Assembly (NCBI RefSeq): GCF_007858975.2
Contig: NZ_CP042220.2
Coordinates: 3,162,001 to 3,226,000, forward strand
Direction: 5' to 3'
DNA from: Dickeya poaceiphila
Lineage (GTDB): Bacteria > Pseudomonadota > Gammaproteobacteria > Enterobacterales > Enterobacteriaceae
DNA length: 64,000 nt
The notes below the pieces were generated by a model, which worked only from the letters and a program-made list of their open reading frames with translations, ran no database searches and was not told the DNA's origin. Made by a program: the position numbers and the translations under genes. Of this stretch, positions 22,348 through 63,432 are shown piece by piece (the stretch's first letter is position 1; each line of letters starts with the position of its first letter).

Positions 22348-22423
22348 GCCCGGATAGCTCAGTCGGTAGAGCAGGGGATTGAAAATCCCCGTGTCCTTGG
22401 TTCGATTCCGAGTCCGGGCACCA
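22348..22423 (+). tRNA. pheV: tRNA-Phe (GAA), ICE attachment site
   Basis: A 76-base tRNA with acceptor stem GCCCGGA/TCCGGGC, D-loop AGCTCAGTCGGTAGAG, anticodon stem GGGGA-TTGAAAA-TCCCC with anticodon GAA (22381-22383), T-arm GGTTCGATTCC and an encoded ACCA end. It sits beside speC as pheV does in E. coli, a well-known insertion site for islands of the SPI-7 family. The integrase 230 bases downstream and the abrupt change to mobile genes mark its 3' half as the left attachment site. The other att copy is not in the window. Confidence 0.96.
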
Positions 22424-33040: not shown

Positions 33041-33235
33041 ATGTTACATGCATTGTTCGTTGCAGCCCTATTTTATTTTTTCCTCGAAAAATACACGACT
33101 ATCAACCCAGTCGATTTTACGCTGGGAGCAGTAATGATGGTCGCGCCTTATTTTCTTTTCGTCGGCATAAAAATTATTATTGATGAATGGCGAGAGGACG
33201 GTGCCAGTAATATCCAAAAAAAAATAGCGCCATAA
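33041..33235 (+). CDS. Small membrane protein
   Basis: 64 residues, two hydrophobic segments (about 3-15 and 27-47), acidic tail DEWREDG. TAGGAAC precedes the ATG. It stands alone between minus-strand genes. Function unknown. Confidence 0.45.
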   Translation: MLHALFVAALFYFFLEKYTTINPVDFTLGAVMMVAPYFLFVGIKIIIDEWREDGASNIQKKIAP

Positions 33236-33258
33236 GGCGCTATTCATGCAAATCACTA

Positions 33259-34173
33259 TCAAGCAGCCACACGCAATTCCGTTACCTCCCTGACTTCCCG
33301 TTCGTTTGATTTTGCCACATCAAACTGCGTCCTCACCCACTCGATGGCGTCGGCCACCACTTCGTGGTAGTCGTAACTGGGTATGTTATCCAGGTTGTCA
33401 ACGTCGACATCGGCCAGGAACGACTCCATCTCGATACCATTATTGTAAAATACCGTTGCCTGTACACAGGCCGGTGTAACGATACCTTCCGCCACCTTAT
33501 CGATATACTGCACAAGATAGTCGGGGTCGAACTCGCATATATCTATCTCCGATAATTTCTGCGGTCGGCACATTACATCAATGTGGCCAATCGAGAGCTG
33601 AAACCGCCGAATACGTCGTTCGTCAAAGCTGCAGCGGTGAAAGAACCGGTTGAGCTGGTGATAACAATGCCTGCTGATGTCCGCCAGTTTTTCCCCCAGA
33701 TGTGTCATAAACGCAATCCAGTGTGAAACAGTTTTTGCAAACAGTCCCCGCGGGATCTGCTGTGCCGGACTCACATCCATCTGCCCTGTCATAGCCAGAT
33801 AATCTTCATCCGTCAGTTGCAGCAGCGCCTGGTAGTCCGGACAAATCAGCGTCATGAACCGCCCACTGTTCTGCCGGTGCATATACGGTAACAGTGAATA
33901 GTTCTGCTCCCGCTCGCTCAGTGCCTGCAATCCCTGGATCCAGAGCGACAGATAACGCCGACTACGCTCACAACGTGCTTCGTTTCCAGGCTTTTGAGCC
34001 AGCTCAGTCAGCGTCGCTTCCATCACTGGCAACAATCGCTCCTGGGTGAATATCAGGCTGGCGTTAACATACCCTTCCAGCCCATCACCAAGATTCCAGT
34101 CCAGTTCATCACTCTCCAGCTCCAGACCGATGGCCCGAAATTGCTGGATAATGTACATATCAATCAGTTCCAT
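33259..34173 (-). CDS. Conserved ICE protein of unknown function
   Basis: 304 residues from the ATG at 34173 (GGAG seven bases upstream; an upstream in-frame start is TTG). Largely helical with an acidic C-terminal half (DVDVDNLDNIPSYDYHEVV). No known domain seen. It is the last gene of the minus-strand operon headed by the 37925-38206 gene and follows the ArdC-like fusion after a hairpin. Confidence 0.6.
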   Translation of the reverse strand: MELIDMYIIQQFRAIGLELESDELDWNLGDGLEGYVNASLIFTQERLLPVMEATLTELAQKPGNEARCERSRRYLSLWIQGLQALSEREQNYSLLPYMHRQNSGRFMTLICPDYQALLQLTDEDYLAMTGQMDVSPAQQIPRGLFAKTVSHWIAFMTHLGEKLADISRHCYHQLNRFFHRCSFDERRIRRFQLSIGHIDVMCRPQKLSEIDICEFDPDYLVQYIDKVAEGIVTPACVQATVFYNNGIEMESFLADVDVDNLDNIPSYDYHEVVADAIEWVRTQFDVAKSNEREVREVTELRVAA

Positions 34174-34201
34174 AACATGCTCCGTCAATGAAAAAGCCAG
34201 A

Positions 34202-34220
34202 GCATTCCCGCCAGGAATGC
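34202..34220 (-). terminator. Hairpin between ArdC-like gene and downstream gene
   Basis: GCATTCC (34202-34208) and GGAATGC (34214-34220), seven perfect pairs with a five-base loop, in the gap between two genes of one operon. It is followed by no U-run in the direction of transcription, so RNA processing or partial termination is possible. Confidence 0.45.
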
Positions 34221-34250
34221 CCTGACGGGTTAGAAAAAATCAGTTAAACG

Positions 34251-36206
34251 TTACGCTGCTTCGCCTTTTGCGGGAGCCGTCGGCACGACATCGTGACGAA
34301 TGCCTTCATCCCGGGCCAGTTTGTAACGCCACAGTCCCAGATGGTACATCGGCGTTACCAGGTGACGACTGAACTCCTGGCTTAACGAATTACCAATAAC
34401 CACCACGGCCGGTAATCCCAGCAGGGATAACTGTACGTAGGTCATCATGGCCGCTACCGGATCGAGGTCGACACAGTGTGCGAACATTTGCGTCTGCGGG
34501 TTTAAACCTTCATCCCGCATAGCCTGGTACATGCCGATGATCATCGCCCCGCCACCACAGGCGGGATCAGACACCGTCACGTACTCGCGTTCGCCGCTAC
34601 GCAGCGCTTCAGCCATCGGTACCATCTGTATTTTGCCCATCATGTAACTGACAGAATACGGGGTAAAATACTGCCCTATCCGACTGCTGCTCAGTTCCAG
34701 CTCCATGAATATGCTGCCAAGAAAATCACAGACCTCATACTCCAGGCCCATAGTCAGGATCCCCATCAGCTCCGCCAGTCTGGACGCATCCTCTTTTGAG
34801 TAGCGTTTGACCCGGCGCATATAGTCCGCCTCCAGCTCTTCATTTTTGAAAATGCTGTTGTACAACGAGATAGCCGCCATATGCACAAAGTCACTGAACA
34901 CCTGCCAGCGGTTTTCATAGGGCGATATACGTTTAAACAACGCAACAAACTGGCTGCGATAAGGATTACGACCAGAGCCTGATGTTGCAGCTGATGGCAA
35001 CTCGACTACGTTATCTGCCGGATCATCACCATCATCATCGGGATCATCATTGGCTGCATCAGGTACCGGTTCAACAGCAGAAAGCGTCGGTGCAGACAAA
35101 GGCGTCATTGCATCATCAGGTAAAGACAATTGCCGTTCGGTCTGCCGCCGGTATACCGTCAGCGCAGTCGGGCACACTTCAGCCAGAGCCAGGACATCAT
35201 GCGCCAGTGTCAGTAATGCACGAGTCAGCGTCGAACGACGTGGCCACCGATACAACTCCGCCAGTGCACTGATAGCCTGCCCAGGCGAATTGCCCGCCTT
35301 CAGATGCCCGATCACCTCACTTTCACACACCAGTGAGGTATCAGCGAATGACTGGTCAAAATACTGCCCGGTCAGAAACGCTGCCAGTTCCTGCCAGCGC
35401 TCTACCGCCAGAGAACGAGGGTCACGTAGCAGATAGCGTTGTACACGGCTGGCTAACATGCCGGCACGAAAGAGCACGGATTCATCCTGCCGTAGCCGAC
35501 TCGTCAGAGCAGGCATAAATGACAATGACGATCTGAACCCTGACAAACGGCAGCGAGCCAACAGAAACGCCGTCGCAAGCTCTTTTACCAGCTCCCAGAC
35601 CACATCATCCGGAATATTCAGCCGATGTTCGTGCCCGCTTGATGCAACCAGCAAAGGCAGCAGCGCCTGGTAAAAACCCACGTCGGTATCAAACTGTGTA
35701 ACAGGTGGTATTTCGATACGATCCGGGCCTGGTAAATAACAGGCCGGTTCGGATGTCATATCCTCCCGGAACACAATCGGCACCTCAGCCATCGACAGCA
35801 TCTGTTCCAACAGCGGTAATTCTGCTCGCCATGGTTTGATGTCCGGTCCGAGATAGGCTGCCGGCAGTCCTTCACACTGCGCCACATTGGCCACTTTCAT
35901 CAGTGAAAGTGTGGGACGAAAACGCACTATCGTCGTCGGCCTAGCACTGTCGATCAGTCGCCCGCCAACCGCACGCAGTTCGTCACCAGTCAGCCACCGA
36001 TTAGACGGCAGCATGTTGTCCCGGGTGGCCTGCCAGAGCAGCAGAATGTTGATGCCGGAGAACATCTCCCCCGTCACGGCGTGCTCGGGGATCCCCGACG
36101 CAGGAAGTGGTGTATCAAAATGCCAGGGGATCATTCCACGTTTCATCAATGCCAGCAGTCTGTTATTGATAAAGTGAAAAATTTGTTGATGTGAAAAATG
36201 TGCCAT
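34251..36206 (-). CDS. ArdC-like / N6-methyltransferase-like fusion, catalytic motifs lost
   Basis: 651 residues from the ATG at 36206 (GAGAGG upstream). Residues 5-115 follow the ArdC N-terminal ssDNA-binding domain (INNRLLALMKRGMIPWHF, AVTGEMFSGINILLLW, NRWLTGDELRAVGGR, CEGLPAAYL). Residues 120-215 follow the ArdC metallopeptidase-like domain, but HExxH is replaced by PLLVASS before the retained GHEHRLN. After a 160-residue helical stretch and an acidic linker, the C-terminal 200 residues resemble a type I HsdM-like methyltransferase with motif I DPACGGG (547-553) but no NPPY-type motif IV. ArdC proteins are anti-restriction factors protecting incoming DNA. A binding-only anti-restriction role is my inference. 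Confidence 0.7.
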   Translation of the reverse strand: MAHFSHQQIFHFINNRLLALMKRGMIPWHFDTPLPASGIPEHAVTGEMFSGINILLLWQATRDNMLPSNRWLTGDELRAVGGRLIDSARPTTIVRFRPTLSLMKVANVAQCEGLPAAYLGPDIKPWRAELPLLEQMLSMAEVPIVFREDMTSEPACYLPGPDRIEIPPVTQFDTDVGFYQALLPLLVASSGHEHRLNIPDDVVWELVKELATAFLLARCRLSGFRSSLSFMPALTSRLRQDESVLFRAGMLASRVQRYLLRDPRSLAVERWQELAAFLTGQYFDQSFADTSLVCESEVIGHLKAGNSPGQAISALAELYRWPRRSTLTRALLTLAHDVLALAEVCPTALTVYRRQTERQLSLPDDAMTPLSAPTLSAVEPVPDAANDDPDDDGDDPADNVVELPSAATSGSGRNPYRSQFVALFKRISPYENRWQVFSDFVHMAAISLYNSIFKNEELEADYMRRVKRYSKEDASRLAELMGILTMGLEYEVCDFLGSIFMELELSSSRIGQYFTPYSVSYMMGKIQMVPMAEALRSGEREYVTVSDPACGGGAMIIGMYQAMRDEGLNPQTQMFAHCVDLDPVAAMMTYVQLSLLGLPAVVVIGNSLSQEFSRHLVTPMYHLGLWRYKLARDEGIRHDVVPTAPAKGEAA

Positions 36207-36237
36207 GCTCAACCTCTCACGCAGCAGGAGAGAGGTA

Positions 36238-36269
36238 TCCCCCGGAGGAGATACGCTCTCCCCGGGGGA
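36238..36269 (-). terminator. Long hairpin upstream of the ArdC-like gene
   Basis: TCCCCCGG, one bulged A, GGAGA (36238-36251) pair with TCTCC-CCGGGGGA (36257-36269) around a five-base loop. It lies between the 161-residue protein gene and the ArdC-like gene of the same operon. Confidence 0.55.
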
Positions 36270-36280
36270 CGGTGTGGTAA

Positions 36281-36766
36281 TTATTGTGCAGACGGCGTCT
36301 GCGGATGGAACAGACCAGTGGCAAAGCTCACCAGTCCCTGGACGTTGGCATAAAACTGATGGGCTTTTCCGGTCAGATAAGTCACATCAATTATACCAAA
36401 ATGCCAGGCGGCCAGTGCGCCGGTAACCACGGTGGTCACTGCCAGTGTGCTCAGCCAGCGAAGACGACGGCGGCGCAGTTCAGCACGTTTGAGCTCAACC
36501 TGTTGGAACAGGAACAACCCCAGTGTCTGCAGCTCGGTGAAACGCTCAAACTCGGCATCACGCAACTGTTCACAGGCCTGGTCATACTGTGCCAGTTCCT
36601 GCGGGAACTCCGCCTTCAGGAAATCGCGATAACTCTCGTTTCGCAAAGAGCGATAGTGTTGATCGAATTGCGTTTGCAGCCATTTCTGAAACCGGGTGCG
36701 TGTCTCACTGACGATTGACGGCTCGGTTACTAAAGTCTGCAGGTTGTGATTAGTCATCTCGGTCAT
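36281..36766 (-). CDS. Single-span membrane protein of unknown function
   Basis: 161 residues with AAAGGA upstream. A long helical N-terminal region (1-95, ending in the basic RAELRRRRLRW) precedes one transmembrane segment (about 104-124) and a short periplasmic tail. No family recognised. It is in the minus-strand accessory operon. Confidence 0.6.
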   Translation of the reverse strand: MTEMTNHNLQTLVTEPSIVSETRTRFQKWLQTQFDQHYRSLRNESYRDFLKAEFPQELAQYDQACEQLRDAEFERFTELQTLGLFLFQQVELKRAELRRRRLRWLSTLAVTTVVTGALAAWHFGIIDVTYLTGKAHQFYANVQGLVSFATGLFHPQTPSAQ

Positions 36767-36798
36767 GGATAAGTCCTTTGTTTATTAAGATATAAAAC

Positions 36799-36828
36799 GG
36801 CGGACTTATCCTGACGGATAAGTCCGCC
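36799..36828 (-). terminator. Perfect 13-pair hairpin in the accessory operon
   Basis: GGCGGACTTATCC (36799-36811) and GGATAAGTCCGCC (36816-36828) with a four-base loop, between two co-oriented genes. There is no U-run, so it is a strong RNA structure rather than a clear intrinsic terminator. Confidence 0.6.
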
Positions 36829-36845
36829 AGGCGGTGGATATAACG

Positions 36846-37124
36846 TTAACTGCCCATCAGAATCGACAACTCACTGCCGTTATAGTGGAGCCGAAGTGGC
36901 TGCCATAATGGCGTGAGACTGTCAGCACTGCCGGGTGGCTCGCTGTATATCCCGAATGACGCATCAGTAACACCAGGTTTCAGTGCTGCCCAGGCGTGAC
37001 ATGATGCAATGAGTAGTGACTGAAAACGCTCGCCTTCACGCTGCGGATCAGCCGGAAATGTAACGACACGGTGCCAGACGTCATCGTCAATGACGATAGC
37101 CGGCACACGAGGTACCAGGTTCAT
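36846..37124 (-). CDS. Small protein of unknown function
   Basis: 92 residues from the ATG at 37124 (GGAG nine bases upstream; an upstream start is TTG). Contains DDDVWHRVVTFPADPQREGE and SCHAWAALKPG. No family recognised. It is flanked on both sides by strong hairpins. Confidence 0.5.
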   Translation of the reverse strand: MNLVPRVPAIVIDDDVWHRVVTFPADPQREGERFQSLLIASCHAWAALKPGVTDASFGIYSEPPGSADSLTPLWQPLRLHYNGSELSILMGS

Positions 37125-37158
37125 AGCAAACAGCTCCAAATCGTATCGGAGCTGCCGG

Positions 37159-37186
37159 CATGATACGCGGGAGCCCCGGTATCATG
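37159..37186 (-). terminator. Hairpin upstream of the 92-residue gene
   Basis: CATGATAC (37159-37166) and GTATCATG (37179-37186) with an inner CGGG/CCCG stem, giving a nearly continuous 12-pair hairpin in the gap between two genes of the operon. Confidence 0.55.
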
Positions 37187-37214
37187 GGAAAAGTAACAAA
37201 AGAAAACGATGACG

Positions 37215-37586
37215 CTAGGCGACATTGAGCACGCGATGGCGTTGGCCAAGCACACGCTGCAACATCTGATTTGCCATATCGACGGCTTCGTTTTCATCCT
37301 TGAGCTTTTTATCGCCCCACATCTGATCGGGCGACTCATCGCCGAAATAGATCAGTTCGACGCCAGGCTGAAAATGGTTCAGTGCATCACGTATCACGAC
37401 AGGCCGACCACAGGCCGCCGCATTATCGCTCAGTAACCATTTCCCGCTGTAAACGGTATGGAATACCACGTTCTGCCGCTCACGATGGTTGTAATGCGTT
37501 GTCAGCAGCAGTTTCAACACGTACAACAATGACATCATTAACCAGCACACGCCTTTCCAGACCATGATGGCCAGTCTCAGAAGCAT
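37215..37586 (-). CDS. Membrane-anchored protein of unknown function
   Basis: 123 residues with a strong GAGGAG site. One N-terminal hydrophobic segment (about 5-28), then a soluble domain with YSGKWLLSDNAAACGRPVV and ELIYFGDESPDQMWGDKK. No family recognised. In the minus-strand accessory operon. Confidence 0.55.
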   Translation of the reverse strand: MLLRLAIMVWKGVCWLMMSLLYVLKLLLTTHYNHRERQNVVFHTVYSGKWLLSDNAAACGRPVVIRDALNHFQPGVELIYFGDESPDQMWGDKKLKDENEAVDMANQMLQRVLGQRHRVLNVA

Positions 37587-37609
37587 AGATATCTCCTCGG
37601 TTTAGCCCG

Positions 37610-37822
37610 TCAGAGAAACCACTTGTACACCATATACAGCAGACCAAACGCGAGTGAGCAAACCAGTTTTACCACGGTCATCATGCCCAGCAGTTTGAGT
37701 AACGATGAACGGTCACGTTCATAACACTCATCGCGAATAATTTGCCGAACAAGCCTTTTCTGCTCGTTTGTCAGTGAGTCTGCTGTGTCACCAGACTCAG
37801 ATACTGAGAATGTAAAGGGCAT
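37610..37822 (-). CDS. Small C-terminally anchored membrane protein
   Basis: 70 residues with a charged N-terminal half (NEQKRLVRQIIRDECYERDR) and a C-terminal hydrophobic segment (about 45-68). GGAG lies 11 bases before the ATG. Function unknown. Confidence 0.5.
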   Translation of the reverse strand: MPFTFSVSESGDTADSLTNEQKRLVRQIIRDECYERDRSSLLKLLGMMTVVKLVCSLAFGLLYMVYKWFL

Positions 37823-37888
37823 CTGATACAGGGCTCCGCAAAGCGGGAACCTCGTTATCGGGAAAAGATCCCCGCGGGGTCAAAGGAA

Positions 37889-37912
37889 GGGGAAATCCAA
37901 ATAGATTTCCCC
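37889..37912 (-). terminator. Hairpin after the first gene of the accessory operon
   Basis: GGGGAAATC (37889-37897) and GATTTCCCC (37904-37912), nine perfect pairs, six-base loop, 13 bases past the stop of the 37925-38206 gene. A second small palindrome, CCCCGCGGGG, lies just downstream at 37870-37879. Confidence 0.55.
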
Positions 37913-37924
37913 GGTAACGGTAAA

Positions 37925-38206
37925 TTACAGAGTGAAACGGTAGCGGTAAAACGCCATGTGCCTGGCCATTATACTGGCTTCTGCCAGTGCACGCCGTGCA
38001 CTACGGAACTCTCCTACCGAATCGAAGAATTCAGCGGCACGAGTACCGACCCGGCGCTCCACATTTGCAACATACATCCCGTTACGACGTGAAATCACAG
38101 GGCGGAAACTCAGTTGCCCTGTCCGGTTTGTAAACCACTCCTGTTCGTGATCAGCAGATTTATTACGCAGTACGTTCATCAGCTTACGCAACAGTGAAAT
38201 TATCAT
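37925..38206 (-). CDS. Small basic protein, first gene of the accessory operon
   Basis: 93 residues, pI high (MIISLLRKLMNVLRNKSADHE and many Arg). GGAGAG precedes the ATG. No family recognised. It directly follows a textbook leader terminator, so it is the first gene to be affected by any attenuation of the operon. Confidence 0.55.
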   Translation of the reverse strand: MIISLLRKLMNVLRNKSADHEQEWFTNRTGQLSFRPVISRRNGMYVANVERRVGTRAAEFFDSVGEFRSARRALAEASIMARHMAFYRYRFTL

Positions 38207-38221
38207 TGAAGTCTCTCCATT

Positions 38222-38268
38222 AAAAAAAGCGGAGAAAACTTCGCCACGATCGGGGAGGTTTTCCCCGC
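38222..38268 (-). terminator. Leader intrinsic terminator / attenuator
   Basis: On the minus strand GCGGGGAAAAC (38268-38258) pairs with GTTTTCTCCGC (38239-38229), 11 pairs including one G-U wobble valid only in this direction, followed by seven U (38228-38222). The ribosome site of the first operon gene begins right after. It lies between a structured RNA element (38472-38630) and the operon, so it can decide whether transcripts continue into it. Confidence 0.75.
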
Positions 38269-38311
38269 GGTGGGTTAAGAAAATATCATGCTATCGTTGA
38301 GCTATCTGGTT

Positions 38312-38340
38312 CATACAACCAGCTCAAGCGATGTTGTCAA
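38312..38340 (-). promoter_or_regulatory. Possible promoter of the accessory operon
   Basis: On the minus strand TTGACA (38340-38335), a 17-base spacer and TGTATG (38317-38312). The -35 is perfect and the -10 is poor. It lies upstream of the leader terminator and downstream of the structured RNA. Confidence 0.35.
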
Positions 38341-38471
38341 AAATACGCATCAGTTCGCATAGAACATCCTCATACAGTCAATAAAGCCTGTCGAGGACGC
38401 ATTACCCGTATCGGATAATATCCCGACAGGGTGAGTAAGAAAAAACAGAAAGGTTGGGTGGACATGACCTT

Positions 38472-38630
38472 GAATGCGTTAGCATCCGCTGTTCTCAAAG
38501 GTTAAACAGCATTACCACCATTTCTGGCGATCACCTTTCAGGTCACATAACTCGCTCAGCAGAGGGTTATGCAGATGATCTTTCATGTGATTACCCGAAG
38601 GCGCCCTTCTCAAATCACCAGGGCATTGGC
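38472..38630 (-). ncRNA. Structured RNA element, copy A (possibly C4/P4-CI-like)
   Basis: About 160 bases with four stems that recur, with different bases, in copy B at 40639-40793. Stems on plus coordinates: GCTGTT/AACAGC (38488, 38505), ACC/GGT (38533, 38541), ATAAC/GTTAT (38547, 38566), GTGATT/AATCAC (38587, 38613). Loops and joining segments such as CCCGAAGGCGCCC and CTCGCTC are nearly invariant. Wobble pairs in copy B make sense only for minus-strand RNA, which would lead into the leader terminator and accessory operon. The layout recalls C4 antisense RNA of phages P1/P7 and CI RNA of P4, which act by pairing with nearby targets; that family link is from memory. Confidence 0.6.
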
Positions 38631-38699
38631 TGTTGTCGAAAGACAACGATTAGCCTAATCACTATACATCGACAAAAAGACAGACATCAAGCACTGTTA

Positions 38700-39026
38700 T
38701 CAACAAGCTAAGGACTTAGTTGCCCCGGTTTCCATGTACTGCCATACTTCACCAAAATTTTCGGCTACAGTTGGCTGAGATAATGTGCGGTTTGCCTCGT
38801 GATTACCGAGAGCACTCCACATCATAGCCCTACCAAAAGACAGGCAGCAAGTGCTACTGAAAAAAACACGCTCATCCCGAATATCACAAAACAATACACC
38901 CCCGGTAATCAAACTCACCGTTTTTTGTCGTGGATAAAGCGACAGCTTAAAACTACTCCACGATACTCTGCCCTGCAGGAATATCCTGAACATGCGTATT
39001 ACCCGGAATAAATACCACATCATCAT
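38700..39026 (-). CDS. Possible small protein coupled to the second recombinase
   Basis: 108 codons. The ATG at 39026 overlaps the recombinase stop (TAATG) and AGGATG lies just upstream, as for a translationally coupled gene. The N-terminus is hydrophobic and basic; the C-terminal half contains ALGNHEANRTLSQPTVAENF. No family recognised. Existence is uncertain. Confidence 0.4.
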   Translation of the reverse strand: MMMWYLFRVIRMFRIFLQGRVSWSSFKLSLYPRQKTVSLITGGVLFCDIRDERVFFSSTCCLSFGRAMMWSALGNHEANRTLSQPTVAENFGEVWQYMETGATKSLAC

Positions 39027-39916
39027 TATTCATCCTGGTCAACTTTACTGTATACACGATTAACGTAATAGCCTCGTCCGTCACCGTGACCTAAATCCAT
39101 TGACACCATTGCCTGAGCCTCTTCCTCACTCAGTCCCCTCTGTTGATGAAATACCAGCGCTTCCTGCGCATAAGCATATCTCAAACTATGTGGAGCATAC
39201 TTCCCTACTAAACCAGCTTCTCTGACTACCGTTCTATAACGGTCTATTGATGAGTGCAGGTTTGGTTTGTCTATCAGTCGACCATTATTTTCACTGGCAA
39301 AGCGAATAGCTGAATTAATAACAGGCAATAATTTATCTCTATTAATAATTGTCGTTTCCCTGGGACGCCCCCCTTTTGTTCCAAATATCACCTTTACCCG
39401 CTCACTGTTGTTGATTATCGCTGTTCGCCATGTTGTCAATGATTTAACCGACTGAACTGCCTCTTCTGTTCTCAATCCTAATAAGCGAGACAGCTGCAAC
39501 GTTAATCCAACACCACTGTCCGTTTCTGAAACCTTAGATAAAACAGACTCAAATACATTTTCAGGAATGGCGACTTTCGTACCATCTCTGTTCGCCCCGG
39601 ATATGCCTAGCGATGCATTATTCAATGCATCGTGTTCAGGATCAGCCATAATGGTTTTCCCCGCGACTCTGAGCACTCCTCGAATAGCGGACATCTCATT
39701 TTGAAGTGTACGCAATGAAATGCCTTCTTCGCGTCGACTCTTTATGTATTGCTGGATGTGACGGACTTTCAAATTGTTTGCATCACGAATCTGTATATTC
39801 AGTGATATCAACCTGGACGCAACGCGATCAGCAATTTTCATGCGATCAGCGACAGTTTTAAAACTACCGCCACCTTGCTTTGCCAGTGATACCAGTTGAC
39901 GACTTAATTTACTCAT
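39026..39916 (-). CDS. Second tyrosine recombinase (Integrase_1 type)
   Basis: 296 residues. The N-terminal part resembles the phage SAM-like integrase domain (RHIQQYIKSRREEGISLRTL) and the C-terminal part the catalytic core: Arg in RLLGLRTEEAVQ, His-X-X-Arg in APHSLRYAYAQEA, His in LGHGDGRGYY and Tyr in NRVYSK. Such integrase-domain proteins on ICEs and plasmids may act on the element itself rather than at the tRNA. It is preceded 23 bases upstream by a 21-base perfect inverted repeat. Confidence 0.8.
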   Translation of the reverse strand: MSKLSRQLVSLAKQGGGSFKTVADRMKIADRVASRLISLNIQIRDANNLKVRHIQQYIKSRREEGISLRTLQNEMSAIRGVLRVAGKTIMADPEHDALNNASLGISGANRDGTKVAIPENVFESVLSKVSETDSGVGLTLQLSRLLGLRTEEAVQSVKSLTTWRTAIINNSERVKVIFGTKGGRPRETTIINRDKLLPVINSAIRFASENNGRLIDKPNLHSSIDRYRTVVREAGLVGKYAPHSLRYAYAQEALVFHQQRGLSEEEAQAMVSMDLGHGDGRGYYVNRVYSKVDQDE

Positions 39917-39938
39917 TCCCCCTCCTCAACCCAATCCG

Positions 39939-39988
39939 CTGACGATACCTACATTTCGTCTGCGTGAACGAAATGTAGGTATCGTCAG
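39939..39988. repeat. Perfect 21-base inverted repeat upstream of the second recombinase
   Basis: Arms 39939-39959 (CTGACGATACCTACATTTCG and a final T) and 39968-39988 are exact complements around the eight-base spacer CTGCGTGA. No U-run follows on either strand, so it is not a plain terminator. The position suggests an operator, a recombination site for the adjacent enzyme, or a stem in the leader. Confidence 0.65.
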
Positions 39989-40638
39989 TGGCACGCCACC
40001 AACGATTTACGATTTGAATGTTCACCCCGACGGCACGGTTAAGATGCGCTTCCTGCGTCTCGACAAGTATCTGTGCATCGGGGTGGCGAATAAGTTGAGT
40101 TCTTGCGAAGCACCCCGGGGATTTCACCCGTTCGCGGCTTATGCCGGGCTGACTCGTTAGTGAATCAGACTGCTTCCACACGTCAGTGTTAGTGACGTCG
40201 CCATCGATACTGTGTCGATTTTTCTCCTCATGCTTAAAAGATCATCGTTGACGCGGTTATTGCGTTACATACGACGTTGATGTTGAAAAAGTGAACACTT
40301 CAAAGCGCATTTACGATATGAAAAACGTCAAAACGAAGTTCACTACGTGTTGGTCAGATGGAACAACTTTCATTGAAGCGGCGCTACGTGCGGTTCAGCA
40401 CGTTGTGCGCTACGCGCGTCACTTGGTTTTCGTTTCACTCAACACAAGTGACGCGCGCTCGTGTTCCCAATGCGTTCTCCCGGAAGATGCCAAATGTTCC
40501 AAATGGCATATCCTGGAGCGCAAAGGTCTCAACGAGTCGTTGCATATAATGAAATCAATGAATTAACTTCATTCTCTGACGTGAGCAGCAAAACGCTCAA
40601 AGCGTACGTTTTTGCTGTTGTGATGTGAAATGAACCCT
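39989..40638. other. Non-coding, repeat-rich region
   Basis: About 650 bases with no convincing gene. Holds a 13-pair hairpin CGCGCGTCACTTG/CAAGTGACGCGCG (40413-40425 and 40445-40457) and an imperfect stem CAGCAAAACG/CGTTTTTGCTG near 40587-40617. A reading frame on the plus strand (to 40160) lacks a start codon. The high density of inverted repeats could fit an origin of transfer or a recombination region. Confidence 0.4.
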
Positions 40639-40793
40639 AAATGCCGTTACGCACTTGCCGTTTTCAAGGGATAAACGACTTTGCCACCTTGCAGCACCGC
40701 CTTTCAGGCTAAACAGTTCGCTCGTAATAAGGTCTGTTCATGCGGTTTTGTGATCACCCGAAGGCGCCCCTCTCAGATCACCAGGGCATTGGC
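40639..40793 (-). ncRNA. Structured RNA element, copy B (possibly C4/P4-CI-like)
   Basis: Diverged second copy of the element at 38472-38630, same strand and order of stems: GCCGTT/AACGAC (40657, 40674), GCC/GGC (40699, 40707), AACAG/CTGTT (40712, 40734), GTGATC/GATCAC (40750, 40776). On the minus strand the first stem has a G-U pair where the plus strand would have a C-A mismatch, and the inner GAGGG/CCTTC hairpin behaves likewise, which sets the transcribed strand. Minus-strand transcription would run toward the second recombinase. Confidence 0.6.
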
Positions 40794-40948
40794 AGTCACA
40801 TATTAGTGACGGTACAACGGATGCATGGTAGATCAACTCAGCGATCCAGATCAATGCCACAAACAGCCTGCACAGACAAAACGTAGGGTAATTTGAGTTA
40901 TACACATACCCACCGGCAAAGTCGGCTCGACACTCGCCGACCGCTCCC

Positions 40949-40996
40949 GCATCTGCTCCCCCCTTGTTGGGGGGGAGACAGATGCTGGCTTTTTTG
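40949..40996 (+). terminator. Intrinsic terminator, plus strand
   Basis: GCATCTGCTCCCCCC (40949-40963) pairs with GGGGGGAGACAGATGC (40970-40985) with minor internal mismatch, followed by GGCTTTTTTG. It points in the plus direction although no supported plus-strand gene lies just upstream; it may block read-through toward 41089. Confidence 0.6.
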
Positions 40997-41088
40997 CCCG
41001 TGGATATGTGCATAACTAATGAAATTATTGACAATTACTAATAAGATAACAACACACAGTAAAATGAATTAATTCGGGAAAGACACTT

Positions 41089-41343
41089 ATGTATAACATA
41101 GCTGAAAAAACAGAAGACGAACGGAATAAAATAAATGTCGATTTAGCCGCGTCAGGCGTTGCATACCGCGAGCGCCTGAATATACCTGTCATCCCCAAAG
41201 ATATTGAAGAAAAGCAGCCAGAGTATTTAAAGACCTATTTTAGAGAGCGACTAGAGCATTATCGTCAAGTCAGTAAAACCCTACCAAAAGCTGATTCTCC
41301 AGAGTATGCTTCAATGCGAGATGATGTGCCCCCATCTAAATAA
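41089..41343 (+). CDS. Small acidic/basic protein of unknown function
   Basis: 84 residues starting MYNIAEKTEDERNKINVDLA and rich in charged residues, probably helical. Its reading frame is clean and it follows a terminator and an AT-rich promoter-like region. No family recognised. Confidence 0.5.
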   Translation: MYNIAEKTEDERNKINVDLAASGVAYRERLNIPVIPKDIEEKQPEYLKTYFRERLEHYRQVSKTLPKADSPEYASMRDDVPPSK

Positions 41344-41445
41344 CTCACACTTTTAAAGCATCACTCACTTATAACAGACCAGACAAATCATCCCTGTGAT
41401 GCAAATCATCATTGGGATGATATTGGTCAAACATAAACCATTTAA

Positions 41446-42207
41446 TTATAATTTTGTCATTTTAAATTCTTCGCGATCAAGGCTAACCGTATCAATTTTT
41501 ACTACATGCCCATGCATCTCTTGGTATCTTTTGACAGCAGATGTAACTTCCGCTACATCCTTCTCATTCATTTTCATACCCAGATATACTCGGTTCAATT
41601 GATCTTTTCGAAAAGGATATGCGCCTTGTTTATTTTCCCTGAAACATCGCATTTCCTGTTCATATGACCAAGCCTCATCTTTTGTTAAAATAATATTTCG
41701 TGCAATTTCACCTGTAACAATTCCATCTTTATCGTATAGCCGAGGCCTCTTTTTGCTATATACAACATCCAATGGATAGATGACTTCATCATCCATACAA
41801 CCTTTATCAAGACATTCAATAATGTAGTTACTAATAGCCGAATTAACCCGAAACTCAAGCACACACCCCTTATGATTGTCAGCATAATGAGCCCACAAAG
41901 GAAGAATAAAAGGCGACTTACTAAAACACGTCACGGCCCATTTCTTTGAGAACTCAGCGCGCATATCATCAATATTTATATTATTTAAGGTCGATTTCTT
42001 CTTTTTTCCATGAACATCAGGGAGAATGTTATGATGCCTAAGGATATATTTATAATGCTTACTAAGCCCCTCCTTGGGTACACAAGGGAAAACATCAAAT
42101 GGATCATTGAAATTTAAAGGGTTGGTAAAAAAAAGGGTGCCATTATTAATAATTAACAATGCATCCTTTTTATTAACATACTTATAGAATGAAAAGCCTT
42201 TTATCAT
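41446..42207 (-). CDS. DUF2971 family protein
   Basis: 253 residues. The pattern YKYVNKKDALLIINNGTLFF, TNPLNFNDPFD, CFSKSPFILPLWAHYADNHK with GCVLEF and AWSYEQEMRCF is that of DUF2971. The family is of unknown activity and is frequent on mobile elements near defence genes. AT-rich compared with the surrounding tra genes, and free-standing, which suggests cargo. Confidence 0.8.
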   Translation of the reverse strand: MIKGFSFYKYVNKKDALLIINNGTLFFTNPLNFNDPFDVFPCVPKEGLSKHYKYILRHHNILPDVHGKKKKSTLNNINIDDMRAEFSKKWAVTCFSKSPFILPLWAHYADNHKGCVLEFRVNSAISNYIIECLDKGCMDDEVIYPLDVVYSKKRPRLYDKDGIVTGEIARNIILTKDEAWSYEQEMRCFRENKQGAYPFRKDQLNRVYLGMKMNEKDVAEVTSAVKRYQEMHGHVVKIDTVSLDREEFKMTKL

Positions 42208-42307
42208 TTTATATATTTCTCACCTCTAACATACATCTGAGCCTGTTCTCCAAGGCTCAGAAACGATTAGCTACAGTGTGATCATATGGATAATTGGATC
42301 TTTCTGT

Positions 42308-43396
42308 TTACAGATCACCATACAGACTACGCAGTCCTGTCAGGGACTCGGCCAGCGCCCCTTTTTCTGCCCTAGCAGTCAGTTGGCCAACGAGTGACGC
42401 AAAGGCATTTGGCTGCAAAAACACACGCAGACCATCAAGGCCGAAAAATCCGTCTTCAGAGACGTTCCCTGGTGGCGAGAACATGACTCTATCCCCCTGA
42501 TGCCCGTGTTTTAGAGCATTCGGGTATTTCGCATATAGCGTCAACACACCCAGGAGTTCTGAAAAATGCTCCCAGCCATACGGCACAACGAAATCCTGAC
42601 CAGTGATGAGTAGATGAAGACGAGGCATCTCATACCATGTTCCAGGCCGCTGTCCAGCAGGTTGCCCATCGATACGAATATCCAGCCTCAGCGATCCAGC
42701 TTTAATGCTCTCCACCACAGCCGGTATGAGCGGACGGAGTTCCTGCACCAAGGCCTCCGCCTTGCTATCAGACCACCTCAGACCACGCAGAACCAGCGGA
42801 AACATCTGCTGTAAACGCGTTAGAGTGAAAATTTGGTTCAGCGCATCACTGGGAAACGTGGTGAGATCAAAACAACCACACGCCAAGGGACGAAGCAGGC
42901 ATTCGGCATAGTCCTGGTCGATAACTGGTCGAAGATCCGTTAGGAAATGGGCGTATTCGGCAGGTAAATCCTCCCCAGTCAGCCTGAAAGTCCCTTGCAA
43001 GTAGTGCTGATCCACATCCATATCGTGTTCAGTCTGCCATATCAGCAGTTCGTGGGTAATCTCCAGCATCGTGCGCAACGCGGGCAGGCTCGCCAGACGG
43101 TTGCGACCAGTGAGATAACCCTCCCGAGCAAACGTCACCATGAATCGCAGTTCATCGCGTGATACTGGTACCACACCAAAACTCTGACCGAGGATCAGTC
43201 GACGATACAGTTGGCTGACAGTCGCATCAGGATCGGAAACCAGGCTCAGATAATTGTCACTGACCGTGGCAGTTTTCAGTCCATCATCAATGAAACGCTC
43301 CGCAAGCGCGTTAACGGATGTCTGTTCACTGGCTGCACGTTTTTTAAGAGCATCAATGAGTCGTTTGTGAAATCGCAAATTCAACTGGCTAAGCAC
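42308..43396 (-). CDS. Ribbon-helix-helix protein of unknown function
   Basis: 362 residues. The N-terminus QLNLRFHKRLIDALKKRAAS then SVNALAERFIDDGL follows a ribbon-helix-helix DNA-binding domain; the remaining 310 residues are unrecognised. It diverges from parM across a 250-base region containing a palindrome TGCTATCATAGCA 40 bases before its start, so it could regulate itself and possibly the partition operon. Confidence 0.6.
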   Translation of the reverse strand: MLSQLNLRFHKRLIDALKKRAASEQTSVNALAERFIDDGLKTATVSDNYLSLVSDPDATVSQLYRRLILGQSFGVVPVSRDELRFMVTFAREGYLTGRNRLASLPALRTMLEITHELLIWQTEHDMDVDQHYLQGTFRLTGEDLPAEYAHFLTDLRPVIDQDYAECLLRPLACGCFDLTTFPSDALNQIFTLTRLQQMFPLVLRGLRWSDSKAEALVQELRPLIPAVVESIKAGSLRLDIRIDGQPAGQRPGTWYEMPRLHLLITGQDFVVPYGWEHFSELLGVLTLYAKYPNALKHGHQGDRVMFSPPGNVSEDGFFGLDGLRVFLQPNAFASLVGQLTARAEKGALAESLTGLRSLYGDL

Positions 43397-43643: not shown

Positions 43644-43646
43644 ATG

Positions 43647-44603
43647 ATGAAGATTTTTGTTGACGACGGTTCGACCAACATCAAGGTGCAATGGAACGAA
43701 GGGGGGGGAGTTAAGCGCTTGATCAGTCCGAACAGTTTCAAGCGCGAATGGTCGGTTTCTTTCGGCTCAGAACCCGTGTTCAACTACTCGCTTAACAGCG
43801 AAAACTATAGCTTCGACGCTATTAGCGCCGATGCCCTTGTGACGACTAATGTCGCATGGCAGTACAGCGACGTGAATATCGTAGCTGTGCATCACGCGCT
43901 GCTGAAGACCGGCCTGGAACCACAGGATGTCGATGTAGTTGTAACCCTGCCATTGGCCGAGTTCTATGACCGAGATAATCAACCACGTCTGGACAATATC
44001 CGTCGTAAGGAGGAAAACCTGAAACGCCCCATTTCCCTGAATGGTGGGCGCACATTCACGATCCGCAGTGTTCAGGTTATGCCGGAATCAATTCCGGCCG
44101 GGTACGGCATCGCGAAGGAGATGGATGATCTTGAATCGCTCCTGATTGTCGACCTTGGTGGTACTACACTCGATATATCTCACGTCATGGCACGTATGCG
44201 CGGAATTTCCCGCATTTACGGTAACTCGCAACTGGGGGTATCACTGATGACACAGGATGTACGTGCGGCAATGGCCATGGCCAGAACGCGGAGCAGTAGC
44301 TATTTAGCTGATGAAATCATCATCCACCGCAACGATGAAGACTATTTACGCAATCGCATTAATGACACCGAGCGGTTGGAACTGGTGAAAAACGCTCTGT
44401 ATGAGTCACATCACCGCCTTGTAAACCGGGTGATTGAAGCGATCGCAAGCTTTAGCGGGTATTCTCATGTTAAGGTGATCGGCGGCGGTGCAGCGCTCAT
44501 CGCCGATGCGGTCAAAAAACACTGTGGACTGAGAGAAGATCGCTTCTTCTTCAGCGATGATCCACAATTTGACCTAGTTAATGGCATGTACGAAATTGGT
44601 TGA
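43647..44603 (+). CDS. parM: Plasmid-type actin-like partition ATPase ParM
   Basis: 318 residues, strongly like ParM (StbA) of plasmid R1: [43 protein letters not shown], the phosphate-binding [14 protein letters not shown] and [18 protein letters not shown]. ParM polymerises into filaments that push apart ParR-parC-bound DNA copies. The ATG at 43647 is five bases after AAGGAG; the ATG at 43644 is too close. Followed by parR with overlap. A type II partition system implies that the element has an extrachromosomal, segregating phase. Confidence 0.93.
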
Positions 44604-45019
44604 TGATGGTTGATGATATGGAAAAACCGGACACACGACGCAAAATCATGTTTTATCTCAGTCCTGAAAGCAGCATGGCTGACCGTTATGTCTGCGACGA
44701 AATAGACAGAATGCCACAGGGTGAAAGAGGCAAAACATGGCGTGCTGCGCTGCTGGCCGGTTTTGCTCTGCGTAAGCAAGATAGCCGACTGCCACACATG
44801 CTTGCGGAACTGCTGACAGAACACACCACATTCGAAGAAATGGTACTGGTCATGCAGGCTGTTTTCCCGGAAGAGATGAAAACCTTCGGAGAACGGAGAC
44901 CAGGCCCTGTAACCAAGGCTCCAACTATGCCTGAGGGGCAAAGAACGGAGGCTGAAGCAAAGCCTAGGGATGAAACGCAGGAAAATGCCAAAGCGATGTT
45001 CAATTACAAAGCTGATTAA
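44603..45019 (+). CDS. parR: Partition adaptor ParR
   Basis: 138 residues from the ATG at 44603, overlapping the parM stop (TGATG). KPDTRRKIMFYLSPESSMAD, CDEIDRMPQGERGKTWRAAL, LAGFALRKQDSRLPHML and the PEEM region parallel R1 ParR, a ribbon-helix-helix protein that binds parC and caps ParM filaments and also represses the operon. The C-terminal tail is disordered and acidic, as in relatives. Confidence 0.9.
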   Translation: MMVDDMEKPDTRRKIMFYLSPESSMADRYVCDEIDRMPQGERGKTWRAALLAGFALRKQDSRLPHMLAELLTEHTTFEEMVLVMQAVFPEEMKTFGERRPGPVTKAPTMPEGQRTEAEAKPRDETQENAKAMFNYKAD

Positions 45020-51946: not shown

Positions 51947-53560
51947 TTAAAAATTTGGATTAATACGGGCTGATACGCCGGCGTGCTCCTTTAAGAGATA
52001 AAGAAGACCTCCACCATCAATGAGTTCTATGGGTTTATCCTCACAAAACCGATAAGCGTCTTTGCCGTACTGGCTGGTACAGACCAAAATCCCTTTATTC
52101 GCACCCTCATTCATCATTGTACCGTACAGGTCTCTGACGGCGCTAACACCGACCGTGTCTTTATATCTTTTGGCTTGAATAACAACTTTACCTCCCAGAA
52201 TTGGACGTGTATCAAATGCGACCGCATCAACACCACCGTCTTTTGTGCCCCTGGTAAGTTTCGTATCTAATCCCATTTGCGTAAACAGGTTTGAAACCAA
52301 AACTTCAAACTCAGATGGAGAAAGCTCCATAAGGTTTGGGCGAGTTTCAAGGCTAGAAAGAGCGTCACCTTGATCAATGAAACGGTTATCAACCATATCA
52401 AACTCAAGAATGGGCTTGACTGCCTGGAGTTCATCAGGCCGTCCTGAAACTTGAGCACCGAGACTTCGGAGACATGCAATTTTTTCAACTCGCTCAAGGT
52501 TGATTTGCATAAAATCATCTTTATGTGCTCGCGCTGAAACCAAAGTAACGATGATGTCATGGCCGCTGGTTGGATCAATAGTCTCGATAACACCGTTAAA
52601 AAGAACAGATGTTAAAGCTGAGGCCTTATCTGCTTCGAACAGTTCATGCAAAGTTCGAAGTGTAATTGCTGCAATTATATTTCGATAAAGTTCTTTTATT
52701 TCGTTAGGCTTTCTAGCCTTTGCCTCAATCGTATCTCTTGTCTTAATATACTTATACTCAAGCTGGCTTGGGACAATAGATATCTCTGGCAAACTATATT
52801 CAACTACCAACTCTTGATTTTCAGGTAAGTATGCGAGCCTAAATGATTGAGGAAAACCGACTTCTGGATATTCAGAACGTGTCAAAACCATTTCACAATA
52901 AGCTAGCACGCTTTCAGGAACACATTCCAGATAGTCTAGTTCAAACTGATTAACTTCTTCATGCTGCTTTTTAATTTCTTCGAAATAGGCTGTTCTATTC
53001 TTTTGATATTCTTCAACCAATGAATCCAACTCAGTCTTCTGGTTAGAAACCTTTCGCAGATATTCTTCTTTTCTTCTAGTAAAAATCTCTTCGGAACTTC
53101 GTAATTCCCGTTGATACTTTTTTTTCACCCACGGGAAAATCATTTTCCATGCAGGAGGAACATTCACAACTTTCAGTTCAGGCTCTGCCTCAGGTAATAA
53201 GTGCCTAGGCGTTTTGAAATCGTCGAACTGAGGTGTTTTCTTTAAAGCGGAGAAATCTATCGAATCATCAAACTCAAGAGTATGTTCAAGTAAAGTTGAA
53301 AGGGCAATGATAACCTCTTCCAACTCAGCGTTCAGGTCGGACACCTCATCCAGTCGCCCTTCTAAGTACGCGACTTTAGCAGCTTTTTCTGTCGCTTTGT
53401 GCAAACGTAATATCTGTGCGTTTTCTCTTTTAGCTTCACGTTCTAAACGTCGAACCTCAGCAAAGTGATTTCTCTCTGACCTCTTCCGCTCGCGCTCCGC
53501 CGCTGCTACCGCTCTAGTTGTCGCGCGAATAAAACCTTCAAATCCCGATCTGCGTCCCAT
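51947..53560 (-). CDS. Mrr-type restriction endonuclease with coiled-coil N-terminus
   Basis: 537 residues. The first 80 are a charged coiled coil (AAAERERKRSERNHFAEVRR), followed by a second helical stretch (about 170-230) and a middle domain of unknown type. The last 125 residues form an Mrr_cat PD-(D/E)XK nuclease: LSPSEFEVLVSNLFTQMG, GTKDGGVDAVAFD (catalytic Asp445) and KVVIQAKRYK (Gln462, Lys464). Mrr-like enzymes cut modified DNA, and coiled-coil versions occur in phage-defence islands. It is divergent from the 53914 gene. Confidence 0.85.
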   Translation of the reverse strand: MGRRSGFEGFIRATTRAVAAAERERKRSERNHFAEVRRLEREAKRENAQILRLHKATEKAAKVAYLEGRLDEVSDLNAELEEVIIALSTLLEHTLEFDDSIDFSALKKTPQFDDFKTPRHLLPEAEPELKVVNVPPAWKMIFPWVKKKYQRELRSSEEIFTRRKEEYLRKVSNQKTELDSLVEEYQKNRTAYFEEIKKQHEEVNQFELDYLECVPESVLAYCEMVLTRSEYPEVGFPQSFRLAYLPENQELVVEYSLPEISIVPSQLEYKYIKTRDTIEAKARKPNEIKELYRNIIAAITLRTLHELFEADKASALTSVLFNGVIETIDPTSGHDIIVTLVSARAHKDDFMQINLERVEKIACLRSLGAQVSGRPDELQAVKPILEFDMVDNRFIDQGDALSSLETRPNLMELSPSEFEVLVSNLFTQMGLDTKLTRGTKDGGVDAVAFDTRPILGGKVVIQAKRYKDTVGVSAVRDLYGTMMNEGANKGILVCTSQYGKDAYRFCEDKPIELIDGGGLLYLLKEHAGVSARINPNF

Positions 53561-63189: not shown

Positions 63190-63432
63190 TTAATTGGCAA
63201 AGAAAAAGAGACAAATCACCAGCAGCAGGATGAACCGGAGCACACTGCTCACCATCGTTTCGGTGTCTATCGCCTGACTCCGCCATCCCCGATACAAAGA
63301 AACGAACGTCCATGCGGCTATCAGGAACAACACGACAAAGAGCGTCCCCGTGATCAAGTTGTTGAGTACGGAGGACTCATTGCCCCCGGCACCAATACTC
63401 CATGCTCCACTTTGTGCGCTGGTCATCGGCAT
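63190..63432 (-). CDS. ICE membrane protein, PFL_4701/TIGR03758 family
   Basis: 80 residues with two hydrophobic segments (about 28-46 and 64-79). AWSIGAGGNESSVLNNLITG and YRGWRSQAIDTETMVSSVLR are the TIGR03758 pattern. Role in the transfer machine unknown. The start abuts the RAQPRD gene stop. Confidence 0.9.
   Translation of the reverse strand: MPMTSAQSGAWSIGAGGNESSVLNNLITGTLFVVLFLIAAWTFVSLYRGWRSQAIDTETMVSSVLRFILLLVICLFFFAN

Follow-up and report, generated by a model that had tools for sequence, protein, structure and literature searches.

What do two diverged repeats on the minus strand of an integrative and conjugative element (ICE) of Dickeya poaceiphila encode, and what might they do there? 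The repeats lie in a stretch of 64,000 nucleotides (nt) of the chromosome (NZ_CP042220.2, 3,162,001 to 3,226,000), referred to below as the window; coordinates are window positions unless marked otherwise. Both segments are STAXI RNA (Rfam RF01728), with cmscan scores more than 30 bits above the gathering score of 40.5 bits. An EFASI RNA, also above its gathering score, stands beside one of them.

38463 to 38648, minus strand: STAXI RNA copy A, 186 nt, probable leader of an ArdC/methylase operon (77.5 bits; class A by its neighbours)
40630 to 40811, minus strand: STAXI RNA copy B, 182 nt, probable leader of EFASI and an integrase gene (72.5 bits; class B by its neighbours)
40061 to 40218, minus strand: EFASI RNA between STAXI copy B and the integrase gene (RF02957, cmscan 56.1 bits, gathering score 51.2)

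It is tentatively proposed that STAXI acts in cis as a processive antiterminator RNA, in the manner of put, canT and conAn2; this may be its role. The proposal draws on computed observations of family, strand, pairing, position, promoter-like sites, downstream hairpins, complementarity between hairpin arms and Shine-Dalgarno (SD) regions, and co-occurrence. Termination at the hairpins, its suppression by STAXI and the action in cis are what we infer.

A first-pass annotation of this DNA had aligned the two segments over their whole length, and they are indeed homologous throughout (about 61% identity, gaps counted). It had described a structured RNA duplicated in one ICE. The repetition stands, the number of two does not: the ICE has a third copy on this strand, about 21 kb outside the window (genome 3246965 to 3247154; 82% identical to copy A), and a fourth STAXI is found on the same chromosome at 3928750. 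The likeness to the antisense RNAs C4 and CI had to be given up. No match to C4 (RF01695) or its clan was obtained across the window at the gathering score, nor in 36000 to 43000 at E up to 1, and the Rfam covariance-model comparison that had been suggested for C4 returned STAXI for both segments. A C4/CI-like antisense immunity RNA can thus be given practically no credence, the family being refuted by the covariance models; in its favour stands a C4 RNA near another STAXI of the same genome. The observation of the repeats holds and the C4 analogy fails; the repeats are members of a known family with a new, testable functional lead.

The STAXI motif was introduced by Weinberg et al. (2010). 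That paper (PMC2864571) gives ssb, topoisomerase, antirestriction and XerDC-type integrase genes as neighbours, notes some copies near c4 RNAs, and leaves a function as RNA or as single-stranded DNA (ssDNA) open, leaning towards RNA because of the UUCG loops. The copies described here share the score, the tandem pseudoknots, the UUCG loops and the neighbours; the window has the integrase and ArdC, and the third copy lies at topB and ssb clusters. They differ by a stem-loop insertion in unit 2 of the copies from this ICE. The name EFASI stands for 'frequently around STAXI and integrases', as quoted in a study on vesicles (PMC12370729). The EFASI of the window conforms to the name, with STAXI upstream and the integrase downstream, although it is a low-scoring member. 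A search of a limited literature collection yielded no paper on STAXI function. In publications on antitermination or terminators in conjugative elements, leading regions or antirestriction, STAXI was not named in the titles or the beginnings of the abstracts.

Structure, strand and position of STAXI

STAXI units are H-type pseudoknots enclosing a UUCG hairpin. The pseudoknot P1/P2 of unit 1 is present in 56 distinct sequences, and further units are visible in the cmscan alignment. Four conserved stems had been described earlier; the layout as plain stems was replaced by pseudoknots with an inner hairpin. The compensatory changes noted at that time are real. For the first third of the three ICE copies, 98.3% of 60 cells were paired and seven pairs had changed on both sides, a value reached by none of 500 shuffles, with three sequences only in the comparison; structures slid along the same alignment paired 31 to 57% of the cells. 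Pairs were counted over the first hairpin and unit 1, while units 2 and 3 were viewed in the cmscan alignment. Among 56 distinct gapless versions of unit 1 from relatives, 773 of 784 cells pair (681 Watson-Crick, 92 G-U), leaving 5 A-C and 6 other combinations. Re-dealing the columns yielded on average 473 Watson-Crick cells (maximum 504), 176 G-U and 91 A-C. One pair of the pseudoknot stem P1 occurs as C-G, T-A, A-T and G-C. The loop of unit 1 is TTCG in 51 of the 56 sequences, and its closing pair is C-G in 53.

The covariation is real and the minus strand folds, as had been claimed. The strand is fixed because G-U cells outnumber A-C cells by 92 to 5; folding of the complementary strand would tolerate A-C instead. 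One column is a near-invariant G-U pair (53 cells), without which the ratio is 39 to 5.

STAXI matches, obtained by BLAST with one query, occur in 660 of 5,426 complete E. coli genomes and 9 of 72,556 plasmids; phage records gave no match to this query. At the level of the order, 7 of 394 sampled genomes carry STAXI, and at that of the family 84 of 392, with 76 of these 84 above the curated cut-off. The integrase family PF12835 is present in 94 genomes and shared with STAXI in 73. A locus sample of 98 copies with flanking DNA, 90 of them distinct, was drawn from at least 107 places, nine of the listed ones lying outside the sampled loci. Neighbouring gene clusters define three contexts. Class B (33 copies) precedes an Integrase_1 gene, often with EFASI; class A (28) precedes the ArdC/methylase operon; class U (27) lies behind topB and before the ssb cluster; 10 copies are unclassified. 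In an annotated E. coli record, class U neighbours are DNA topoisomerase III, a STY4534 family ICE replication protein, ssb, PilL and TIGR03759.

The contexts recur in a fixed order. All 17 complete sets follow the order U-B-A in transcript sense (ssb leader, int leader, ArdC-operon leader), with B and A 1.8 to 3.8 kb apart in 13 sets and 9.6 to 26.7 kb in four, and U and B 24 to 112 kb apart. Joining copies on a contig with less than 120 kb between them gave 33 groups of at least two among the 98 copies, and 32 of these use a single strand. In 10 of the 20 elements having both, copies A and U lie tens of kb from each other and are 92 to 100% identical; in the others the identity is 43 to 87%. 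Mean identity is 0.70 for pairs within an element (68 pairs) and 0.52 for the same place in different elements (1,086 pairs). This likeness suggests a shared partner, though a nearest-neighbour test of concerted evolution was mixed: of 82 copies, 33 were closest to one in the same element, 27 to one in the same position and 22 to neither. In one genome (G707:C1:606499 and 653435), the U and A copies of a single ICE have the same sequence at a distance of about 47 kb, which looks like a recent gene conversion.

Sigma70-like promoters were found upstream of both window copies.

38661 to 38690, minus strand: promoter-like site of copy A, -10 TATAGT (38661 to 38666), spacer 18, -35 TTGATG (38685 to 38690), 9 of 12 consensus positions
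40825 to 40854, minus strand: promoter-like site of copy B, -10 TACCAT (40825 to 40830), spacer 18, -35 TTGATC (40849 to 40854), 8 of 12 consensus positions

Such sites were counted in the 81 distinct copies scoring at least 70 bits. The best -10 box ends 13 to 14 nt before the STAXI model in 52 copies, TTG[AC] lies 38 to 45 nt upstream in 70, and the mean best promoter score is 8.86, compared to 7.42 in shuffled sequences (maximum of 50: 7.62). Since the best -10 box ends so close to the RNA, most STAXI probably begin a few nt after the transcription start, i.e. at the 5' end of the transcript, as judged from predicted promoters.

A promoter working as ssDNA, like Frpo, was considered and rejected as a rule, no general hairpin holding the -35 and -10 boxes. 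A single folding of the 200 nt upstream of 90 distinct copies, compared with mononucleotide shuffles, showed no general hairpin in the opposite strand of the promoter region folded as DNA (mean z -0.4 for class A, -0.8 for B, -1.9 for U). The class U mean includes a terminator-like hairpin behind topB, and single copies reach -4 to -5.6. In leading regions, the Frpo/ssi single-strand promoters of F and ColIb-P9 stand before anti-defence genes (PMC11541004), a likeness to STAXI. In contrast, STAXI has an ordinary duplex promoter-like site and lacks a general promoter hairpin.

Terminator-like hairpins downstream of STAXI

A processive antiterminator RNA is expected near the transcript start in the sense of its operon, with terminators downstream in the same operon. 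The position agrees, with predicted promoters. Downstream terminators were sought with a hairpin finder built for this analysis, which looks for a fold of at most 45 nt with a T-rich 8-mer behind it. The cut-offs ranged from -9 to -14 kcal/mol across the tests, with -12 for the main counts of classes A, U and B and of loci without STAXI. Some sites fall inside genes, probably by chance, and are estimated by the antisense counts. In the window, three hairpins precede genes of the STAXI A operon, a fourth closes it, and one further site lies inside the 653-amino-acid (aa) gene.

38220 to 38268, minus strand: terminator-like hairpin with T tract separating STAXI A from the first gene, whose SD region is complementary to the 3' arm
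36790 to 36828, minus strand: terminator-like hairpin and T tract before the open reading frame (ORF) 36281 to 36766, whose SD region repeats the 5' arm
34187 to 34226, minus strand: terminator-like hairpin with T tract ahead of the last ORF, whose SD region is complementary to the 3' arm
33214 to 33245, minus strand: terminator-like hairpin closing the operon

The transfer part of the ICE from 45 to 64 kb holds one site on that strand (63295 to 63347), within a 130-codon open frame.

The excess is strong downstream of class A copies. In 28 loci (171.5 kb), 118 sense hairpins were counted against 18 antisense, and 27 loci had at least one in sense. The first 700 nt of 27 distinct class A loci contained 25 sense sites, none in antisense and 2.7 in shuffles. 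Class U gave 37 sense against 7 antisense sites in 94.5 kb. The picture for terminators downstream in the same operon is thus mixed: candidates are in strong excess for class A, in partial excess for class U and in none for class B.

A sequence pattern of the hairpins hit class A operons 38 times in sense and never in antisense. A slightly narrower pattern found 33 distinct sites in 23 genomes (17 with STAXI, 6 without; 110.9 Mb), of which 19 follow a STAXI in its own orientation at a distance of at most 12 kb and 14 do not; reversing the pattern as a control produced 17 hits in the same genomes. The simple pattern misses all three gene-preceding hairpins of the window, and serves therefore as a specificity test and not as a census. 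Hits in the STAXI-less genomes G188 and G080 lie in stretches without a hairpin array; by eye, the ORFs of the G188 stretch look chromosomal.

Sampled STAXI-less operons with homologous genes show no hairpin excess. Eight plasmid leading regions with a methylase homologue, taken from 2,150 plasmids with a match and none of them among the nine plasmids matching STAXI, had 8 sense and 6 antisense hairpins in 54.6 kb. Five elements with a distant homologue of the protein of cluster c5, and no STAXI by BLAST in the stretch, had 4 and 3 in 41.6 kb. Two distant c5 homologues in STAXI-bearing elements do carry the typical hairpin. The c5 protein was detected in 42 of 384 genomes; its near full-length hits above 50% identity are all in STAXI genomes, and one partial hit at 54% is in a genome without STAXI (G680). 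Fourteen loci of the same integrase family from STAXI-less genomes had 14 sense and 15 antisense sites in 123.7 kb. Twelve of these were scanned for both RNAs: EFASI was present in 10, STAXI in none. Five of the eight plasmids have traM within a few kb of the methylase homologue, a place near the oriT in F-type plasmids. Because of this location, the STAXI A operon is plausibly leading-region-like.

Of 102 distinct hairpins (from class A and unclassified loci, plus three window hairpins), 79 have a start codon and its SD-like sequence 12 to 42 nt further on, 66 of the 79 at 17 to 30 nt. The SD region of many modules is a repeat of the 5' arm (R-R'-R), giving the 3' arm two partners. The mean longest Watson-Crick run of the 3' arm is 5.87 with its own SD region, compared to 3.98 with those of other genes (maximum 4.25 of 200). 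Within gene families (58 hairpins) the run is 6.07, compared to 5.07 after re-pairing (maximum 5.43 of 300). For 73 modules, the computed mean unpaired probability of the SD region was 0.42 with the 5' arm, 0.30 without it, and 0.43 when the 5' arm was removed and the 3' half shuffled.

Proposed mechanism and alternatives

In the proposed mechanism, each STAXI would form the 5' end of an ICE operon transcript and serve it in cis as an RNA leader. Its tandem pseudoknots would fold on leaving the RNA polymerase and remain with it, either directly or via a host or element factor, and the polymerase so equipped would resist intrinsic terminators. Downstream of copy A it would pass the hairpins guarding most of the genes, while stray transcription would be halted there, so that the ArdC/methylase genes would be expressed only from transcripts of the STAXI promoter. 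In read-through RNA the 5' arm of each hairpin would occupy the 3' arm and the SD region would stay free; if the 5' arm were absent, the 3' arm could cover the SD region.

Precedents are reported for canT of Tn916 (PMC11658703) and for a bipartite system of Gram-positive conjugation operons (PMC8955417). Like STAXI, canT and conAn1/conAn2 of pLS20-type plasmids are leader RNAs (with a protein in the case of conAn) of conjugation operons with internal terminators. They differ in being Gram-positive and in that antitermination was measured there; the likeness to STAXI is one of proposed role. The structures of the put and EAR RNAs differ from STAXI, a set of tandem pseudoknots. The put RNA of phage HK022 and EAR of the Bacillus eps operon are likewise antitermination RNA elements without a known protein partner, as cited in PMC11658703.

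New here are the hairpins behind STAXI, its 5' position, the G-U strand test and the three recurring places in a fixed order. STAXI has been an orphan since 2010, yet is common. The present evidence narrows 'RNA or ssDNA, function unknown' to one question, namely whether STAXI enables the polymerase to read through the terminators behind it. A positive answer would account for the silence of long transfer and anti-defence operons in a Gram-negative ICE before they are needed, and STAXI would provide a compact antitermination tag. A wider version is more speculative, conceivable though doubtful. According to it, STAXI would be a processive antitermination system, RNA-only or RNA-led, and the first of its kind in Gram-negative conjugative elements. 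The integration, ssb/type IV secretion and anti-defence operons would be tied to one mechanism by three co-evolving leaders. The anti-defence modules would carry their own terminator with a 3' arm doubling as anti-Shine-Dalgarno sequence, and their genes would be read only on STAXI-promoter transcripts.

Several results weigh against antitermination. The main doubt comes from class B, because nothing needs passing before int: its leaders had no hairpin in either orientation in 22.4 kb at a stricter cut-off, and no excess at a looser one (2 sense, 6 antisense). One of the class A loci, G683, lacks a hairpin at the cut-off used. In class U, 17 of the 37 sites lie 73 to 188 nt before a pilL-like gene and may simply separate operons. 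The STAXI-less controls are distant homologues only, with eight plasmids out of the 2,150 with a match, and lineage effects are possible. The computed effect on SD accessibility is modest, a decrease of more than 0.1 occurring in 32 of 73 modules, and the R-R'-R element could regulate each gene alone, with STAXI doing something else. Co-orientation has one exception, two low-scoring copies on opposite strands of a 14-kb contig (G177 contig 14, 3500 and 12630). STAXI without such hairpins also occurs in a satellite-like module of the Dickeya genome (L142), and a 3,140-bp Rep plasmid of E. coli (NZ_CP059920.1; L146 78 to 880) has both STAXI (139.2 bits) and EFASI (77.2 bits) but no annotated integrase.

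These points bear on the alternatives. STAXI might be a cis leader controlling RNA stability, translation or a protein or ligand response of the three operons, the hairpins being separate gene-by-gene attenuators or processing sites. This is rather unlikely but not negligible. It fits the probable 5'-terminal position in all three contexts, class B without terminators, and the arm/SD complementarity, which points to translational control of each gene. A 5'-terminal hairpin would also protect the RNA end. However, the hairpin excess behind STAXI, absent in the sampled STAXI-less homologous operons, would then be a coincidence of lineage. That STAXI and EFASI act in trans as small RNAs (sRNAs) appears improbable. 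Rfam classes both as sRNA genes, both were detected by reverse transcription PCR in vesicles of one Shiga toxin-producing E. coli strain (PMC12370729), and class A copies are closely followed by a terminator-like hairpin. Yet no terminator excess exists just behind class B copies, and a trans RNA does not need promoter-linked copies at three places in operon sense. A terminated sRNA was discarded as a candidate, a clear terminator excess close behind the RNA being limited to class A. The earlier suggestion of a trans- or cis-acting small RNA is narrowed accordingly: the probable 5' position and the lack of a class B terminator excess favour a cis leader and disfavour a separate trans RNA.

A function of STAXI as ssDNA during transfer (ssDNA promoter, primosome or priming site), a possibility also raised in PMC2864571, seems very improbable. 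It would suit the neighbours ssb, topB, ArdC and methylase, which have homologues in F-type leading regions near traM, and the presence of STAXI on the Rep plasmid. Against it stands the preference for G-U over A-C, which indicates that the transcript strand pairs and not its complement, though ssDNA of the transcript strand would be compatible with this. The UUCG loop and its C-G closing pair are mostly kept, and a general promoter-spanning DNA hairpin as in Frpo is absent; both likewise argue against ssDNA.

Further features of the element

The ICE adjoins tRNA-Phe (22348 to 22423), with an integrase gene and a MobH-type relaxase beside it. Transfer genes, including a TraC-like ATPase, extend from 45 kb on. 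The relaxase, the integrase gene behind STAXI B with its upstream repeat, and the ORFs of the STAXI A operon are as follows.

23625 to 25142, minus strand: MobH-type relaxase of the ICE (TIGR03760, 189.2 bits, cut-off 161.4)
39026 to 39916, minus strand: tyrosine recombinase (Integrase_1, Phage_int_SAM_2; PF12835 E=1.8e-58, PF12834)
39939 to 39988, minus strand: perfect inverted repeat of 21 bp per arm (39939 to 39959, 39968 to 39988) without T tract, 22 nt before the integrase start; also a sub-threshold miRNA-like hairpin
37925 to 38206, minus strand: ORF 1 of the STAXI A operon, 93 aa, cluster c2
37610 to 37822, minus strand: operon ORF, 70 aa, cluster c75
37215 to 37586, minus strand: operon ORF, 123 aa, cluster c29
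36846 to 37139, minus strand: operon ORF, 97 aa, resembling cluster c33 by eye
36281 to 36766, minus strand: operon ORF, 161 aa, resembling cluster c34 by eye
34251 to 36212, minus strand: fusion of ArdC-N, zincin and N6-methylase, 653 aa (PF08401, PF18818, PF02384)
33259 to 34188, minus strand: final ORF of the operon, 309 aa, no family match

The inverted repeat before the integrase could be a recombination or repressor site. A strong hairpin with a T tract (-34.4 kcal/mol) lies on the plus strand at 40946 to 40997, upstream of the STAXI B promoter-like site. Beside STAXI B, a DUF2971 protein (41446 to 42207) matches the PADLOC candidate defence model PDC-S31 (E=5.9e-36). An Mrr-type restriction enzyme (PF04471; PADLOC mREase_IV) is encoded at 51947 to 53560 within the transfer region. 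A ParM-like gene (PF06406) and then a small ORF in the ParR position occupy 43644 to 45019, representing plasmid-type partition genes on an integrated element.

The fourth STAXI of the chromosome belongs to another module (genome 3928750 to 3933328; L142 2751 to 7329), together with EFASI, an Integrase_1 gene, isrK, c4-a1b1 and a C4 RNA. This C4 RNA (L142 4910 to 4997) lies downstream of the STAXI-EFASI-integrase unit, a true echo of the C4 association, and is followed by a long ORF that by eye looks like a P4-type primase. The whole region resembles a satellite or a phage.

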